Of a stretch of DNA of 64,000 nucleotides, positions 1 to 29,111 are shown piece after piece. Source of the stretch: Dermatophagoides farinae. Its lineage: Eukaryota; Arthropoda; Arachnida; Sarcoptiformes; Pyroglyphidae. Where the stretch lies: the NCBI RefSeq assembly GCF_024713945.1, contig NC_134681.1:3883501-3947500 (forward strand), given 5' to 3'. Positions within the stretch are counted from its first letter, which is position 1; the number at the start of each line of letters is the position of its first letter. The notes below the pieces were generated by a model. That model saw nothing but the letters and a program-made list of their open reading frames with translations. It did not search any database and was not told the DNA's origin. The position numbers and the translations under genes are program-made.

Positions 1-1984
1 CCGAAATGAATTTTTTTTTTTTTGTTTTGTTTCCACTGACCGATCGATGATGGTGGTGGTGGTGGTGTTGGCGGTTGTAGTGATTGGTTATATTGATAAA
101 CTGGTTAAATCTGGTTTCAATTGTGTGAATAATATGAGCAATATAGACACATTGTTGCTCATTTGTTTACAATCACCATTTTTTTTTTTTTTTTTTTTTT
201 TGGTTGGTCATCTATTTTTGACAATTAACAAAAAAAAGCCAAAAAAAAATTGGATTTTCGTGAACATTCGGTCAATCGATTAATACGATCCATTTTTTTC
301 TTCTAATTATTTTTTCCATTTTCATTTATCCATAATTTTTTTTCTGCCATTGATTTCAATCAATTAATCATCATCATATAGATTATATTTCCAATGGATA
401 TAAAAGGCGCCACCTTTTTTTCTATTGCTAAATTCTGCTATATATATAAAAAATGTGGTTATAATATATGTCGATTCGATGACGCCCATTTTCTTTGTAA
501 TTGTACATCCCACACACACACACACTATTGCCGATTATATTTACTACTTCTATATAAACATCCTCATCATCATCATCATCATCATCGTCGTCATCATCAT
601 CAGTGTATATAGAAAGATAATGATGATGTGTGTGTGTGTGTGTCCAATAGGAATGCTTCAAAAGAGACACCGGTTTTTTTTTCTTATTTCTTTCTTTTTC
701 TTAATATTATTTTGTATATAAAAATGATGATGATGATGATAACTTTTAAGTGTTTAAACATTATAGAGCGAATTTTTTTTTTCGTTCAATCATCATTGGT
801 GGTGGTGGCTAAGATGTTTATCATCATTGAAAAAAAAGAACACACACACACACACACGCATACAAAATAATAATGTTGTGGTTGTGGCCATCATCAACAA
901 CATGGACATGGACGAACCAATTAAATTGCTTCAACATCATCATCATCATCATGATGTATGAAAGATGAAAAAAAAATTTCGAAAGAAAAAAAAATTAACG
1001 GGAAAAAAAATTCATTCATCATCCATGATTAATTGGATCTAGTGAATAAACAAAATCAAAATCATACAGAGAGAGAGAGAGATGATTACAAAATAAATCA
1101 AGAAAGTTTATTTTTTGATTGATTTTTCTGATTTTTTGATTTTTCATTTATCGAAAAAATTTCATCATCACTACCTATGGATTTTTTTTAAATAAAATTT
1201 TTTTTTTATTATGCTGTTGTACATCATCAACATCATGTACGTCATCGGCAGCGGTATCGGGGACTAAAACAAAAACAAAACAAAAAAAGCTAGCGCAACA
1301 ATGAAATAAAATATACATATATATCGTGAACACACACAAGTCCTTCAAAAAAAAATTTCTTTTTTGGTTCATCATCATCTGTAATCAATAGAAATTTTTT
1401 TTTCTGTTTTTACAACAACAAGTTTTTCGTTATTATTGCTGCTGCTGTTGCTGCTGTTCATATACGTATTTGATGATTGGTTATTGCAATGGCTATTTAT
1501 GTGTGTGTGTGTGTGTGTGTTCATGTGATTGTTGTTCATAAAAAAAATGTGAACATCAGAGAAACAAACGAAATGAAATGAAACGAAAAAAAAGAATGAG
1601 AATGGATGTATGTAAAATGAAATACAAAGAAAGAAAAATACACAGTATGAAATAAAGTTAGTTTGAAGAATGAAAAAAAAATGAGAAAGATTGAAAACAA
1701 AAAAAAATATATTTTGGGTTGAAAATAAATAGAAAAAAAAAACATTTCCACTATCAGGTAGCTATTTGATGTTTTTGGTTGTTGGTCAATGTTGTTGTTC
1801 ATGATCATCATTCAGTTTTGTTTTGTGTATGTAATCTGTATGATGATTTTTGTGATTTTTGAAAACGATTGTGTGATATATGATCATAATGATGATGATG
1901 ATGATGATAGAAAAAAATGCTCTGAAATTATTGATCTATAATTGATGATTAAAAATTAATCAATTAATCAATCAAAAAAAAAGA
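1..1984. other. Gene-free 5' flank of the T-box gene
   Basis: No convincing coding exon was found. The stretch contains short CA/GT microsatellites (about 512-525, 628-642, 841-857, 1501-1520), ATG/CAT runs, poly-T and poly-A tracts and a GA run near 1071-1082. The apparent reading frames are Val/His/Ile runs produced by these repeats. It lies directly upstream of the T-box start codon, so it probably contains the promoter and 5' UTR, but no specific site could be supported. Confidence 0.6.
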
Positions 1985-4900
1985 ATGCAATCTTCTAATA
2001 TTAATAATTCATCACCATCATCATCATTGACAAATGATTATCAATTGTATTCAAATTATTTACATTATGATCAATCAATGCAATATATAACAACAACAAC
2101 AACAACAATGATTACGACAACAACAGCAACATCGACAACAACAACAACAACACCATCATCATCATCATTATTGAATACATCATCACATTATTATTATCCT
2201 CATCATCATCATCATGATTTAGATTCAAATAATTTCTATCATCATCATCCATTTTATTCATCAAATGATCATCGTCATTATCATCATCCACATTATCATC
2301 AAAATTCATCGATAGATTATCATAATCATCATCAATCAAATTCAATATCCGGTACAAATAGTGGTTCATATTTATATGATTCTCTTTATCATCCACATAC
2401 TTCATATTATCAACAGTCATCAACATTTGCAAATCTAACATCATCATCATCATCATCTACATCACCATTATCAGCAACAACAGCAACAACAACAAATCTA
2501 TTAACGACGGCCATTGATCCATATGATGTAACAACATTACCAACATTAACATCGGGAAAAATATTCGAACAAAACACTGCAACCAATTCTAATTGTATGA
2601 CAACAACAACAACAACAACAACTCCAACAACCTTATTATCATCATCGACGACAACCACAACCACGACCACGACCACAACCACAACAACAACATCGACAAC
2701 AAATACCCATCAACATCGACATATTAATGTACAATTAATGGATATTGAAATATGGAAACGTTTTTGTGATGTTAATAATGAAATGATTGTGACAAAAGGT
2801 GGTCGTCGTATGTTTCCATTGATTCGTTGTCAAATTGATGGTCTTGAACATCGTGCAATGTATTCAATTGTATTGGAATTTGTACAAATCGGTACACATC
2901 GTTGGAAATATCTAAATGGTAATTGGGTTGCAGGCGGTAAATCGGAACCACCACCACAAAATCTTCAAACATTCTATATTCATCCAGATTCACCGAATTT
3001 TGGTGCACATTGGATGAAAGAAGTTGTTAGTTTTACAAAAGTTAAATTAACCAATAAACCAACTACACAACAAGGACAGGTAGGCTGGCAAAAGGTAAAA
3101 TTTTAATGAAAAAAAAACATATAATCCTAAAAAACGATCAAATAACCAAAAATCAAAAAAACAATTTTTTCTCTGTTTCCCATTTTTTTCAGGTCGTACT
3201 AAATTCATTGCATAAATATCAACCACGAATTCATATTGTACGTATTGAATCAACGGGAAACAATACCGGATCATCATCATCTGCTGCAACAACACCGACA
3301 TCATCATCATCTACATCGACAAATCATTTAGATACAACAAAAACATCAGCTGCAATGATATCATCATCACCAAAATTAACAATGGATGCATTATGTGTAT
3401 TATCTAGATCATTATATCAAAATCAACAAAATTTTCATACTATCAATGATCATAATAATGATATTTGTGTTGGCGATGATGAATTCGGACAATCATCATC
3501 AACATCAAATGATTGTGTGAATATATTTAATAATAATGGTGGTGGTGTTGGTGTTGGCGGTGGACAATCATCAAATCAAGATAATCAATGTTTATCATCA
3601 ATATCGCCTGTTGTTAGTAGTAATAGTAGTAGTAGTAATATAGATGGTGGAATAACAATAACTGGATCAAATCTATTATCATCAGATAATGGAGGTGAAA
3701 GAACAAATAATAACAACAACTCGATAATAAATGAAGATTGTATTGATTCATTTTGTGGTGGTAATAAAATTGTTACCTATACATTTAAAGAGACACAATT
3801 TATAGCGGTTACTGCATATCAAAATGAAGATGTAAGTAATAATAATAATTATTTTTAAATCGATTACGATCGATTGATTGTTATTAAATTTGAAAAACAA
3901 ATTTTTTTTCTCTTCCATTCTCATGATTCTTTTCTTCATGATAAATTAAAAGGTAACACATTTAAAAATTCGTTATAATCCATTTGCAAAAGCATTTCAA
4001 GATATACGTGAAAAACCAAGTAGCCATCATTATTCTTCCAGTCATCATCATCATCATCACCATCATCATCATTCAAATCTTCATCATTCATCGACTGGAT
4101 CAACATATGATCCACATATTCATCAACATCAACATCAACATTATTCACCAACATCACCATTCTATAATCAGCAACAAAGAATAAATACCGGTGCAACAAA
4201 TTCAACCACAACAACATCTACTACTACAACTACAAATACAATTGCTACAAATAAAACAACAACAACAACATTATCATCCATTTCACCACCATTAACATCG
4301 ACATCATCATTATCATCATCATCATCGACAGCAGCAGCAGCAGCATCGGCATCTGTTGCAGCAATGGTAATTGGTAATGATAATCAATCATCGACTTCAT
4401 CAATGTTAACGGCTTTTACAACAACAACACCATCGACAACAATATCAACAATGAGTGATGATGATATGATCACATCGATGACATCATCAACATCATCATT
4501 ATCACAATCAATAATGAATTCTACATTAAATCCACATTATCATCATCAACCATGGATGGATAATCATCAACAAATCGATAATCATCATCAAACATCATCA
4601 ATGAATAATATGATGATGGACATTGGATATGTAAATCAGAATATAACAAATAATAATTTTACAACAACACAGCAGCCATTATCATCATATGGAACGACGT
4701 CAACATGGCCAATATCCGGTATTACTGGAACAGAAACTGTAAATCATAATCAATCATCATATTATCCATCAACAATGATGCATCCATCATATACAACAGC
4801 AACAGGACCACAATCATCATCAATGGAACAACAATCAACAAGTGAACAATTATTCAATGTTCCACCTTGTTATCAATCTACATATACATCATCATCATCA

Positions 4901-22754: not shown

Positions 22755-23988
22755 TTACATCCAACGTGCACGTTGTGCAAAAATCTGTCCTTGTAATGAT
22801 CGTGCAAGAAACATTGCAAATAGCTATTTGAAAACCAGGAAAAAAAATTTTGAAAATTAGTTACGAAAAAAAACCAAAAAAAAAAAAAAAAAATTACCTG
22901 TGCCAATGCTGATCCAAGACAAACGATTGCAACCAAATTCATATTACGATCAACCAATTCACTAATAGCTTCCACACATCCACGTGTATAAACATATTTA
23001 TTAATTTCAACCACTGAACTTAGATTCTGCATATTATAGCCACACATTGAATTGATTTCTGTCTGTTTTGTTTATTTGATAATAAAGGGGTATTGAGAAA
23101 AAAAAAATTTTTTGAACTGGAATAGAAATCAACGTTACCTTTAGATTACGACAACAGGAAAAAGGCACAGCACAACGTTCAGAACTTGGATTAATAAATG
23201 TACAATTAAAATAGATATTCATTGACCAATCTTTATAGCCATGATCCGAAATGCCACAACATTTAAATTGTAGCTGTATTATATCGATTAAATTCTGTAA
23301 ATTTGAATCTTCACGATATTTTGTAATCATATCTTTTGATAGATGATCTTTAAGGAAATGTAAAACTGTTTGTGGAAATACAAATGCCAAACTTGATATT
23401 GTAACTTCACCCACAAATAATATTAACAGCATTAATGAATACTGGTAAACAAAAAAATTGAAAACAAAAAACCAGACAAAATTATCATTTCAATACTAAG
23501 CAATAAATCAATGTACTGACCAATTTGATAAGGCAAAGATTTTCACGTAATGCTCCTAAACAACCCATTAAACTCATTGAAAATATAACCGAACCAGAAA
23601 ATACTAATGCCACCGATATATGTAAAATGAAATCGAAAATATTACGCAATTTGAATAGATTGTATTCATATTCTTCGAAAAAAGACCAAACACCTAATGA
23701 AATCAATGTTGTACCAATTAGCCAGAATATAAGATTGAAAAAGAATAATGAATATTTAACATATGGTGATATGAATGTAAAATCTTCATCCAATAATGGT
23801 GGACAATGACGACAATGATGATGATGATGATGAGATGTTTGTGAATGTTGAATGGCAGCAGCAGCAGCTTGATTACGATTATAATGATTGCTTGAATTAT
23901 GGCCACAATTACGATTACGGCGATGATTTGGCTGTCCACGAGCATAATGATAATTTATCTGATTATTTTGATGACGATTCATCATCAT
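22755..23988 (-). CDS. TspanC8 tetraspanin, TSPAN33-like (4 exons, 334 aa)
   Basis: Four-pass membrane scaffold protein. TspanC8 members are known to escort and regulate the sheddase ADAM10. Exons: 23988-23521, 23441-23139, 23062-22898, 22823-22755, all phase 0. TM segments lie at about 79-101, 121-143, 157-178 and 298-320. The large extracellular loop has CCG (217-219), the YKDWSMNIYFNC block, an ERC and PFSCC motif, MCGYN and a final YTRGC, giving eight cysteines, the TspanC8 hallmark. FTFISPYVKYSLFFFN before TM1 and YREDSNLQNLID in the loop resemble TSPAN33 most closely. The GCLGALREN motif follows TM2. An in-frame TAA upstream supports the start at 23988. An extra N-terminal cytoplasmic stretch of about 60 residues is Asn/His/Arg-rich with six consecutive His beside CRHC. 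The first donor (gtcagt) is slightly off consensus but gives the family-correct join. Confidence 0.95.
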
Positions 23989-24422
23989 TATTGATCTTGG
24001 ATTATTTACAGGTTAGATAAAAATTCTATGTTTTTCTTTTTTTTGGAACTAAAATGAAAAATTTAACACAAAACAAAAACTCAATCACAATTCAGAAACC
24101 AGAATCATTTATTCGACTCACACAGACTCAGTTTGATTTGGATAACAATCATCATCATCATTTATGTATGTAAAGATTTGGAGCAAGAGAAAAAGATTTT
24201 GTTCCAAAATTGATTTATATAGTAAAAAAAAAAAATTTCAACGAAAAAAAACAGAACTTACAGCGCCATCTACTAACAATGGATTCAAACATTATTCCAA
24301 ATGATAACATTTTTTTATAATTTTATTATCCAATTTTAAATTTTAAATTTTAAGTTAAATTCAAAATACGACGCACGAAAAACAATGATTAAATTATGAG
24401 CTAAACTAGAAGAGAAAAAATT
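23989..24422. other. Short spacer between tetraspanin start and M13 stop
   Basis: These 434 bp separate two genes on the - strand lying head to tail. The part nearest 24422 should be the 3' UTR of the LRR-M13 locus and the part nearest 23989 the promoter and 5' UTR of the tetraspanin gene. Only AT-rich sequence and poly-A tracts are visible apart from the poly-A hexamer annotated separately. Confidence 0.6.
24322..24327 (-). terminator. Polyadenylation signal of the LRR-M13 locus
   Basis: AATAAA on the - strand (TTTATT on +), about 96 nt downstream of the TGA stop at 24425-24423. It lies in the spacer before the next gene, the tetraspanin. It is the only canonical hexamer seen there. No AATAAA or ATTAAA occurs between the LRR and M13 parts of the locus, which fits a single transcript ending here. 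Confidence 0.6.
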
Positions 24423-27217
24423 TCACCAACTTTCACAACGTTTCGCCGGATTCATAGCTGAACCAATTGGACAATTGAAAGCTTTAGCGAATGCATCCAA
24501 ATTACTGAGAGCACCATTTACACGATATTTGCCTGGTGAATGAACAGATTTCGATATACGAATCCGTGTCTGTACATGTGTACTAAATCGACACCATTTC
24601 TATTTGTGATTGAGATAAATTAATGATTTGATTTGATTTCAGAAACAAAAAAAAATCAATTATCTATGATACCTGTGCAAATGATATGAAAAATAACATA
24701 TCAATAGAAAATTCTGGTAATTCTTGAATTCTTTGAACATGGATAGCCATCGATTGTGGTGATTGTCCATTGGAAATGGTACCATTTGGTGTTTGATTAG
24801 CCAAAAAACGTTTCGCCACATCTTGATAAGCATAATAGGCGGCTTGTATTCCGGCTAAATCACTCATATCTTCTTCAAATGTTCGTGTGCCATCAAGCTA
24901 TCGAGAAAGTGATCAAGATGAATTAGATTTAAATATCTGTAAATAAATTAATGATTAATACTTACATGTAAATCAGCTTCTTTATCATAATAGCTTGTAT
25001 ATTGTGATACAAAACATTGTGCTTTAAATAGATAATCTTTAAGAATATTCATACTCCATGGTGGTAATAATTGATCAAATTCACTATAACGTGGTGTAAC
25101 TGAATGACCCATTTCATGGCCAAAAAATGATCCTAATGATGCATAATTTAGATAGCTACAAAAAAAAGTAAATAAATCATAATCATCAATGATTGATAAC
25201 GGATGAAACATAAACAAATAAACTTACAATGGACGATCATCTTCATAGAATGGTGGTTGTAATAATCCCATTGGAATAGCTTAATTGATGATAAATTGAA
25301 AAAAATGAAATGAAATGAAATGACAGAATATTCATCATTCATAGAATAAAAACATACTGATCATATGTCCAACATAATCATATGTAGCACCAACATGTAA
25401 TGGTAATGGATCCCAAAAATGGCTTTTATTTACACGTTCACCAATCTGTGATAATAGATGTAAAATTTTACATTCCTGTACCTTTGAATAGAATTTCATC
25501 AATGTAGTTAAATTATTTTTCTTCTTTTCCGGTATCGTGTAATTCTATTAATTGATTTGATTAAATAAAAATCGATTCAAACAAGAATTCAATCATCATC
25601 ATTAGTCATCATACTACCAGAATACTATGGTAATTTTCCAAACTTTCATCATCCATCACCCAATCTGGATAACCGACATTGATATTGATTTTTTCTACTT
25701 TTTCAATCAATTCACGTTTAGGTTCATCGATCCAATTCTTTTTTCTCATTGATTCAATAAACGAATTTTTCACTGTTTCAATTATTTGCTGGGCATTTTG
25801 CCGTGCACTTGATGGTAGATTTTTTTCGGCAAAAATTCTTGCCATTAAATATGGTATCGATTGTAGCAATGGTTCTAAACATTGTTTTTTCATTGCTTTT
25901 AATCCTTCTCTTGATTCGGTGCTATAAAAATTTTGCTGTATATCTATTAATTATAATCAATCAATGATTGTTTTAATCATCATCACTCAATCAATCAATC
26001 AATCAATCAAACCTATGAATGTTGTGCCACCAAATTGATAACCAATTGAATCCATAACACGCCAGCCAATATAATTGGCAATAATACGTTGATCAGTACG
26101 TACTAATAATCGGCTCAATTCAATCAAATAATGAACATCAAACATTAGTTTGGTTTTAGCAAAATTCGAATCATTCATTATACGATGTGTACGTTGTATA
26201 TTGTTCAATACGTAAAGCCAATCAATTTCCTGTATTAAACATCCTAATGTTTCCATTTTTCGTTGTATCATAAATTCTGGTCCCATACTTTTTTTAGCAA
26301 TCTAAATTGAATAATTTTGAAAACATTAGCAATTAGCAATACAGAATGGAATCATCAAAATCATACATACATTGGCTAATTGTTTTTCAAATTTAATCAT
26401 TTCCCATACTTCATCCATTGTTTCGTTTTGATGATTTTTAGCTCCAAAATGTGATGCCGTTGCAAGTATATAATTAGCATATGATTCTAAACGATTCAAT
26501 TTTACTGATAATAATTTACGATGTGATACAATGAAACCACCGCTTTTGATCATTAAATATTTCATTTGTTTTTCATCAATATTTGATTCCAATTCAATGA
26601 ATATATGATCATTATATTGATTGACAATGGTATGGAAATAATTTTCCCAACGATATTGATCACGATCAAAACGTTTTGTTAATAATGGCCAACCGCCAAT
26701 ATCTTGTAATACATGATTTAAAATATCAAAATCTGGTTCTTTTGTTGCCGATATACATTTCGTATACATTGTACGAATATTGGTAGCTAGTATCGTTTTC
26801 TCAAATTTTGATGGCAATTCAATTGATGGTGGCTGCGTTGTTGTGGACAATGATGAAGTGATATTTTTCGGCGGTAACAATAAATCTTGATCAATTGTGA
26901 GTAATTTTTCAAAATTTTCTTCAATTTTCAATTGAACTTTAACAAAATTATCATATTCTGATCCACCATTCGATAAGAATTGTACTAGATATTCTAATAA
27001 ATGTTTACTTTCCCAACCATTACAAGCATAATCATAGAATGATTCACATGGATCAACTGAACGATTAATATATGTATTCATTTCGATTCCTTGTTTTGAA
27101 CATTTTTTCGTTGAACAATAATCACGATGATGATCACCAAATGTTATTGTTTCCATCATTACCGATGAACCATTTCTATATGAATCTTTTGAATCTATGG
27201 GTATTTCATTTGCTTTT
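24423..27217 (-). CDS. M13 (neprilysin-like) zinc metallopeptidase domain, eight exons
   Basis: Ectopeptidase module that in this family cleaves short peptides outside the cell. Exons: 27217-26371, 26301-26013, 25943-25618, 25544-25358, 25279-25228, 25155-24966, 24897-24673, 24599-24423; every phase matches. Numbering follows the joined 1334-residue protein. Visible are the N-terminal DPCESFYDYACNGW (627-639), NYIGWRVM, LLQPPFY, zinc motif GHEMGH (1150-1155), the third zinc ligand in EDMSD (E1210, D1214), VHSPGKYRV (H1296, R1302) and the C-terminal MNPAKRCESW. Length (~760 aa) matches the family. Oddities: the usual NAFY/NAYY reads GATY (1110-1113), and the GFDD that normally follows HExxH is replaced by SVTP. 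If translated alone from the ATG at 27159 it would lack the transmembrane anchor M13 enzymes normally carry, which argues that it is joined to the LRR exons upstream. Catalytic residues look intact. Confidence 0.95.
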
Positions 27218-27275
27218 CTAAAATTTTAGGAAAACAAAAATATGAAATACTTTACATATATACCTCTCAAACGAC

Positions 27276-29111
27276 TTACATCTGATCAGTTATAGTTATC
27301 GATGTATCTTGTGGTGTTGGTGCCGTTGTCGATTTTGTTTGTCTATAATATGGACAGGTTTTATTACGCATATAATCACTAAAATATACGGTATTATTTC
27401 GATCATTTGAACAGCGGAAATTTTTCACACGTAATCGATAACGTTCCGATAATGTCCACGCCATACGACAACCACATTGAAGATTGAAACAATGACGGCC
27501 AACATCGATAGTATTTTTAAGATTTTCATCCAAAAATGGACGAAAAATTTCTTCAGATAAATGATCCAATTTCAAATTACAGCCATTTAATCCAAGATGA
27601 ATTTTTAATGGTCTAAAACGACAACAATAAATGAATAGGAATTAGTACATTTTTTTTGATTGAATTCGAAAAACCTTTTAGCACCAAGAAATGATTCTGG
27701 TTCAAAACTACTTGAATTCAGATCATTATCGGTTAAATCAATCATCAATGTCAGATTGGATGGTTTATTCATACGAAATGCATATGCATGAATGAAATTG
27801 ATGTGATTTTTACTCAATGATAATTGTTCTAAATGCAATAGATCGGCAAATGCGTCCGAACCGATTGATTGTATATTACCAGTTGTGATTTGTATTTCTG
27901 TCAATTGTGATTCAGTTTCATTCGATGAAAATGCTGCTGCTGCTTCTGCTGATGATGATGATGGTGTGGATGTTTGTTCAATACCATCAGTGTTATTCAA
28001 TGATGATGAATGTGAATCATCATCATCATCATTTTTATTATCCACCAATGTCGTGGTAAAAGCTCTGAACAAACAGGAAAAAAAATCATTAAATTTAATG
28101 AAATTTTATTTGAAAAAAATACCTTTCTGGAATCATGGTCAAATTATTCTGATAAATAATCAATTTCTGTAGATTAATTAATGAACGAATTGATGCAAAA
28201 AAATCAAATTTTCCATTCAGTTCAGAGCTAAGATTTGTGCCATAAATGAACACAGTGTATACAGTGTATTCGGTACCAATGAATGCATTGCGATCGATAA
28301 ATTTTAATTCATTACCACTTAATAAAATATTTGAAAATTTAATTCCATTAAACAATCGATCTTCTAATATTGTTAAATTTCTTAAATTAATATAAATGGA
28401 ATCAAAACGTTGCATATCTTCTGGTATCCATTTTGCATAATAAACGAATGTATTTCGTAATTGTTCCGTAGCTGAACCAGAAATTGATGAACCACCACCA
28501 CGGCATAGAATTTCTTTTTTACTTGCATTACATGTACATGGTAATAGAATATGATGATCATCTGAATGTGGACATTGTTGATATTGTTGATGATGATGTG
28601 ATGTTGACGATGAAGAAGCTGATGTTGATGATGATGATGATGATGATTTGGAATGTACCGATGGTTGTACCGATGATGATGATGGTAATTGTTTTATTTG
28701 ATTCATTTTTCCATTTGCCAATATAATTGATAAAATAGCTTCATCATCATCATCATCATAATAAAAAGAATCATCATCATTATTTAAATTTTCCAATCGA
28801 GAATATCGATTTGGCCATATAATTTTATTATGATAATGATGAACAGAATTTCTACAATACAATAATGCCGATGATTTTGGTAGATTTATTGTTGTGATTA
28901 TCATTATGATAACCAATTTCCATATGATAATCATAAATGTTTGATTATGTTGAAACCAAAATTCTACTAATGATTTTAAAATTGATTTATTGATCATTTT
29001 ATTCTTATTATTCACATTATTTGATTTTTTATTCTTGAAATTCTTTTTGGTTGATTGATGCTTTGATGATTTTGATGATGAAGATGACGATGATGATGAT
29101 AATGATGGCAT
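27276..29111 (-). CDS. Leucine-rich-repeat ectodomain with N-terminal signal anchor, three exons
   Basis: Extracellular LRR protein or module of the arthropod class often named after the non-catalytic subunit of Oplophorus luciferase. That name does not imply luciferase function. Exons: 29111-28123, 28064-27675, 27612-27280, joined in phase 2 (AG|A, AG|A). Residues 1-57 are Ser/Lys/Asn-rich and basic. A hydrophobic stretch at about 58-78 fits a signal anchor with the N-terminus inside. The N-cap CPHSD...LLPCTC (C170, C182, C184) is followed by LRRs to about residue 500 (LRNLTILEDRLFNG, ILLSGNELKFIDRNAF, LINLQKLIIYQNNLTMIPE). A Cys-rich cap (HCFNLQCGC ... FRC ... KTC) follows. A Ser/Asp low-complexity insert interrupts the LRRs at the start of exon 2. 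The exon-2 donor (gttttt) is weak. Unspliced reading ends at TAA 27278-27276, which lies inside a strong gtaagt donor; splicing removes that stop and leads into the M13 exons. Confidence 0.9.

Follow-up and report, generated by a model that had tools for sequence, protein, structure and literature searches.

A stretch of 64,000 nucleotides from the genome of Dermatophagoides farinae (contig NC_134681.1, positions 3,883,501 to 3,947,500; the whole stretch is called the window here) raises the question of whether leucine-rich repeats (LRRs) and an M13 peptidase are encoded there by a single gene, and what such a chimera would do. In animals, M13 peptidases terminate peptide signals, and most of them are anchored without a partner. 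The gene was rebuilt from the DNA and comprised eleven exons on the minus strand (29111..24423), which join to 4005 bases, or 1334 amino acids (aa) and one stop. The rebuilt gene bore out the original prediction of three LRR exons (29111-28123, 28064-27675, and 27612-27280) and eight M13 exons (27217-24423) on one strand, with compatible phases and a single frame of 1335 codons (stop counted). The predicted joining intron of 62 bp (intron 3; donor gtaagt, acceptor ttttag) was found between the LRR and M13 parts at 27279-27218. All ten introns were GT-AG, and the other nine measured 58-78 bp; the size of intron 3 is ordinary for this gene. As set out below, the LRR-M13 combination is a real, conserved domain architecture that is undescribed so far as the literature was searched; the gene is solid, its function less so.

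The order of the domains was established from the gene model, hydrophobicity, alignment, and Pfam matches. Exon 1 encodes an N-terminal extension, a hydrophobic segment (aa 59-82, about 28937-28866), an acidic and Ser-rich stretch, the LRR N-cap, and the first repeats. Exon 2 contributes a low-complexity insert and further repeats, including a Pfam LRR_8 match at aa 383-427 (39.8 bits; cut-off 27), and exon 3 contributes the last repeat, a cap (RPFLDEN...CFNLQCGCRMAW...) that we take to be LRRCT-like, with no Pfam LRRCT match there, and the start of a linker. The Pfam LRR match and the LRR solenoid fold identify this part as an extracellular LRR domain. The linker continues in exon 4 (26371..27217), where Peptidase_M13_N (PF05649) begins; this domain (aa 627-1042; 146 bits, cut-off 32) extends through exon 5 (26013..26301) and exon 6 (25618..25943). 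Peptidase_M13 (PF01431) was matched at aa 1112-1332 (147.5 bits; cut-off 24.5), and exon 8 (25228..25279) encodes a piece of the M13 C-terminal domain (IPMGLLQPPFY). By these domains and the neprilysin fold, the protein is a member of peptidase family M13. Searches of PDB folds returned no chain credibly covering both modules among the best 50 of 637 and the best 50 of 954 matches, and in a viral-structure search the best 50 rows matched M13 or LRR in part only.

A protein search with the chimera found 18 proteins at E <= 0.001 among the matches listed, and 4 of these carried both LRR and M13 modules. One of them, the public D. farinae protein P0001 ('neprilysin-1-like isoform X2'), was 100% identical to our model over all 1334 aa; it is the annotation of this very locus and brings no independent biological support. 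The label 'isoform X2' points to the existence of one or more other isoforms. The other three, which were the nearest other proteins, were P0002 of D. pteronyssinus (78% identity over 100% of the query region), P0003 from a separate assembly (51% identity, likewise over 100%), and P0004 of Medioppia subpectinata (36% identity over 46% of the query). The proteome search that had been proposed as a check on the architecture thus retrieved it in other mites, and the two modules were joined in all three proteins rather than split into two genes, the outcome named beforehand as refuting a chimera. Both M13 Pfam domains scored above the curated cut-off in all four fusion proteins, whose C termini keep the CxxW of the M13 family as CESW or CEMW. 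P0002 and P0004 are themselves gene predictions. P0003 has 1165 aa, and the longest contig of its assembly measures 3969 bases and hence leaves little or no room for introns; we infer that its contigs are transcript contigs. When the M13 part of P0003 was used as the query, the next three of the 25 proteins listed (query included) were the other fusions, at 59, 59, and 39% identity, and the remaining 21 showed 30% or less. In the databases the fusion proteins are listed under no other names than 'neprilysin-1-like' or 'endothelin-converting enzyme homolog', which hides the architecture. The suggestion that it is not a described family held, in that no published description of an LRR-M13 (neprilysin) architecture was found in the literature searched, including that on mites, Dermatophagoides, and oribatids. 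The word 'leucine-rich' is absent from the main text of an M13 review (PMC2259306), and one paper from the literature on neprilysin in Dermatophagoides, in the portions available, names a Nep2 homologue of D. pteronyssinus.

In a tree of 30 M13 rows, the four fusion proteins formed one clade (support of 100/100), which joined M13 proteins of Oppiella and Halotydeus at 100/96 and sat on a long stem (1.26 changes per column). This tree omitted 9 of the 39 aligned M13 rows (P0005, P0033, and P0046-P0052) and contained no Drosophila Nepl row; P0002 and three other rows were flagged for unlike letter composition. A clade of all four fusions needs only a single origin. Medioppia belongs to the Oribatida and Dermatophagoides to the Astigmata, and the fusion presumably predates the split of their lines. 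Two relatives, P0006 of Oppiella nova, in which the end of one M13 domain precedes another M13, and P0033 of Nasonia (1371 aa), possibly represent tandem or misjoined M13 genes.

Within the D. farinae genome, the chimera matched exon by exon at 40 places, own locus counted (35 of 49 candidates were scored), and 10 M13 loci (9-10 kb each) as well as 7 LRR loci (4.5-5 kb each) were fetched for comparison. In tblastn searches at E <= 0.01, no LRR match to three LRR queries was found in any of the 10 other M13 loci and no M13 match to three M13 queries in any of the 7 related LRR loci, while the window itself, as a positive control, gave 9 LRR and 11 M13 matches. No further LRR-M13 fusion was seen among these loci and scored candidates. 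The LRR part has at least seven related loci (L017-L023), which shared 33-41% identity (six loci) or 23% (the seventh) with chimera residues about 380-530 and 21-31% over longer stretches. Their proteins are like the chimera in the CP..L..PC.C N-cap (most of them), the repeat spacing, and the LRRCT-like end; unlike the chimera, they have no M13 in the 4.5-5 kb fetched, and three of six scored ends were hydrophobic C-terminal tails, which may be glycosylphosphatidylinositol (GPI) signals. L020 seems to contain several LRR units in series, and L024 and L025 (C7:1796500-1816000) hold three M13 genes clustered within about 15 kb.

These data bear on whether the locus is one gene or two. Gene predictors can join close neighbours, and the unspliced LRR frame stops at a TAA (27276), as would be expected if two neighbouring genes had been fused by annotation error. 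However, the same architecture recurred in P0002, P0003, and P0004, which come from separate assemblies, the contigs of P0003 are too short for much intron sequence, AATAAA is absent from the 62-bp intron, and a lone M13 protein starting at 27159 would have no secretion signal despite the conserved cysteines of the family. We regard an annotation error as highly improbable, and two separate genes were rejected on the strength of the conserved joint and the missing secretion signal of a lone M13. Because the joint is shared, the four proteins form one clade, and the relatives in the same genome are unfused, the architecture probably reflects a single old fusion within sarcoptiform mites. How the fused protein is delivered is a further question, and here a type II membrane ectoenzyme with an LRR stalk, in which segment 59-82 stays in the membrane, competes with secretion; this alternative concerns topology only and overlaps with the other readings. 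The N-terminal hydrophobic stretch occupies residues 59-77 in P0001, 36-54 in P0002, and 3-21 in both P0003 and P0004, with mean hydropathies over its 19 residues of 2.35, 2.76, 1.61, and 2.35, respectively. The 58 and 35 residues ahead of it in P0001 and P0002 are Lys rich, and these two values are high, as a membrane anchor would have it. On the other side, only two residues precede the stretch in P0003 and P0004, where it looks like a plain signal peptide, and both Dermatophagoides proteins have an internal Met at the segment start (FMIIIW) and small residues behind it (SSA and STSA), so that either the outer or the internal Met is a possible start codon. A further peak in P0003 (118-136; 1.79) exceeds its N-terminal one; it belongs to the LRR part and does not represent an anchor. 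We consider a type II anchor unlikely, and secretion the more likely, because the supposed anchor aligns with what look like plain N-terminal signal peptides in P0003 and P0004. The original prediction was right that the peptidase part has no anchor of its own, since neither exon 4 nor the rest of the M13 part contains a strongly hydrophobic segment, but its proposal that a membrane anchor and the enzyme had been separated by insertion of an LRR module was not well supported. The capped LRR part resembles a whole secreted LRR protein of the kind encoded at the seven or more loci of this genome, and for this reason insertion accounts for the architecture less well than does a gene fusion at the N terminus in which the LRR gene took the place of the anchor of the peptidase.

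A third alternative accepts the fused protein and denies it catalysis: the M13 part would capture peptides without cleaving them, the LRR domain would locate it, and the protein would sequester its ligands, a role that has been put forward for the secreted Nepl proteins of Drosophila. In an alignment of 39 M13 rows, HExxH was present in all four fusions (HEMGH, HELSH, or HEISH) and in 38 of the 39 rows; in the chimera it lies in exon 9 (24966..25155; HEMGH at 25118-25104) and is followed by SVTPRY, not xFD. The third zinc ligand and the Asp of ExxxD were retained in all four as EDMSD or EDIGD, with EDMSD at 24873-24859 in exon 10 (24673..24897) in place of ENIAD, and HSPxxYR was likewise retained in all four; exon 11 (24423..24599) encodes it as VHSPGKYR, followed by the C-terminal CESW and the stop. 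The substrate motif VNA[FY]Y was changed, with Gly for Asn in all three fusions with letters there (VGATY in P0001 and P0002, VGASY in P0003; P0004 has a gap), whereas 31 of the 34 other M13 rows with a residue at this position have Asn. VGATY lies at 25394-25380 in exon 7 (25358..25544). The column of what we take to be human Arg102 was variable in the alignment and was not used. FD after HExxHx was found in none of the four fusions and in 33 of the 35 other rows, and the nine HExxH sites seen in 8 of the 10 other M13 loci of the genome all read HE[ILM]TH followed by [GSA][FL]D; a scan for NAYY-like patterns gave no matches in these 10 loci, so the Asn was not compared there. According to the available text of PMC2259306, the Asn in VNA[FY]Y both coordinates the substrate and sets its orientation, and in the part of the Drosophila study at hand (PMC8223033) the active class requires NAY/FY and ENIAD. 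The changed VGATY/VGASY and EDMSD/EDIGD motifs and the loss of FD are what a noncleaving protein would display, and the fusions lack the NA[YF]Y and the ENIAD by which that text defines a Nep and are not classed as Nep. Conversely, all four fusions, from oribatids to astigmatids, have kept their zinc ligands along with the catalytic HExxH Glu and both the His and the Arg of HSPxxYR, which is unexpected under relaxed selection, and ED for EN is not unique to the fusions, being found also in P0009 and one paralogue of the D. farinae genome in L025. A noncleaving protein thus appears possible and rather doubtful. Activity with altered specificity is favoured because the zinc site is conserved from an oribatid to astigmatids, and judging from these residues the fusion enzyme is probably active rather than inactive.

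The reading that we prefer on balance, with slightly better than even confidence, is that one gene encodes a single-chain, most likely secreted, LRR-docked M13 zinc peptidase of altered specificity with one fusion origin. The chain would consist of a signal peptide, an extracellular LRR domain with caps, a flexible linker, and a zinc peptidase of the neprilysin (M13) fold. A gene for a secreted LRR protein, from a family still present in mites, would have fused once ahead of an M13 ectodomain, which would thereby have gained the export signal and the docking domain of the LRR gene. The LRR domain would then be a subunit within the chain for docking or stabilisation and would keep the peptidase on a single partner, either a surface protein or the substrate, and the remodelled active site would cut a narrower set of peptides or the LRR-bound protein. 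The original prediction had likewise suggested that peptidase activity could be targeted in this way, but it did not include the change in the substrate site. More tentatively, the fusions may represent an old sarcoptiform family in which the LRR domain picks one partner and the M13 site (VGATY, HExxHSVTPRY, EDMSD) has given up the broad clearance of small peptides in favour of cutting that partner. Relative to neprilysin and the endothelin-converting enzyme (ECE), the chimera has an LRR domain of about 370 residues in front and no anchor of its own, and it reads VGATY for VNAFY and EDMSD for ENIAD, with no FD after HExxHx. It would act like a two-subunit complex of an LRR protein and an enzyme made as one chain. 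In human carboxypeptidase N, the LRR subunit CPN2 carries CPN1, and L017-L023 presumably resemble the arthropod proteins named 'oplophorus-luciferin 2-monooxygenase non-catalytic subunit'. Oplophorus luciferase consists of a 19-kDa enzyme and a 35-kDa LRR subunit of no known role, according to the available part of PMC9491549. Both systems pair a secreted enzyme with an LRR partner, as in the chimera, and by analogy with them the LRR domain may also stabilise the enzyme; in both, however, the subunits are separate and the enzymes are unrelated to M13. Like Drosophila Nepl proteins, which are mostly predicted to be secreted and inactive, the chimera is without at least one of four motifs and is probably secreted (PMC8223033, available part); unlike them, it retains its zinc ligands and catalytic Glu, bears an LRR domain, and belongs to its own mite clade in a tree without a Drosophila Nepl row.

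Several points weigh against our preferred reading. Catalysis may be lost, since the Asn of NAYY is gone and the Drosophila rule, as given in the accessible text of PMC8223033, calls a protein without one of the four motifs inactive. We infer the docking of the LRR domain on a partner, and its ligand is putative. No D. farinae transcript was encountered, about 200 residues, among them those of the NAYY region, are missing from the M13 part of P0004 of Medioppia (a gene prediction), and the long N-terminal extension ahead of the segment in P0001 and P0002 fits a type II anchor too. An alignment search for distant fusions found 16 proteins, with both modules in two (P0002 and P0003, both query members), and missed the query members P0001 and P0004; its recall was poor, lone M13 relatives may be missed, and it is thus no proof that fusions are absent from ticks, spiders, or Trombidiformes. 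Finally, other M13 genes of the same genome showed 31-42% identity to the chimera over short C-terminal stretches of 58-215 residues, so that the chimera stands closer to other M13s at its C terminus than whole-protein figures suggest.

At the locus itself, retention of intron 3 would halt the LRR frame directly at ATG TAA (stop at 27278-27276) and would yield a secreted LRR-only protein. Elsewhere in the window, a tetraspanin gene (23034-24012, minus strand) starts about 0.4 kb downstream of the chimera stop on the same strand, and a T-box gene lies at 1949-3855. Positions 31000-64000 contained merely 13 stop-to-stop open reading frames of at least 110 aa, mostly of low complexity by eye, in a genome of 62 Mb. 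Rfam and tRNA scans of the whole window gave no matches.

If the more tentative reading is true, the chimera would be a self-targeting neprilysin that carries a substrate-recognition subunit within its own chain. A conserved fusion, mite specific as far as seen, that couples a binding domain to an enzyme whose substrate site has changed is a natural test case for the way in which such an enzyme gains specificity, and its presence in two species of house-dust mite places it where a secreted peptidase merits attention.
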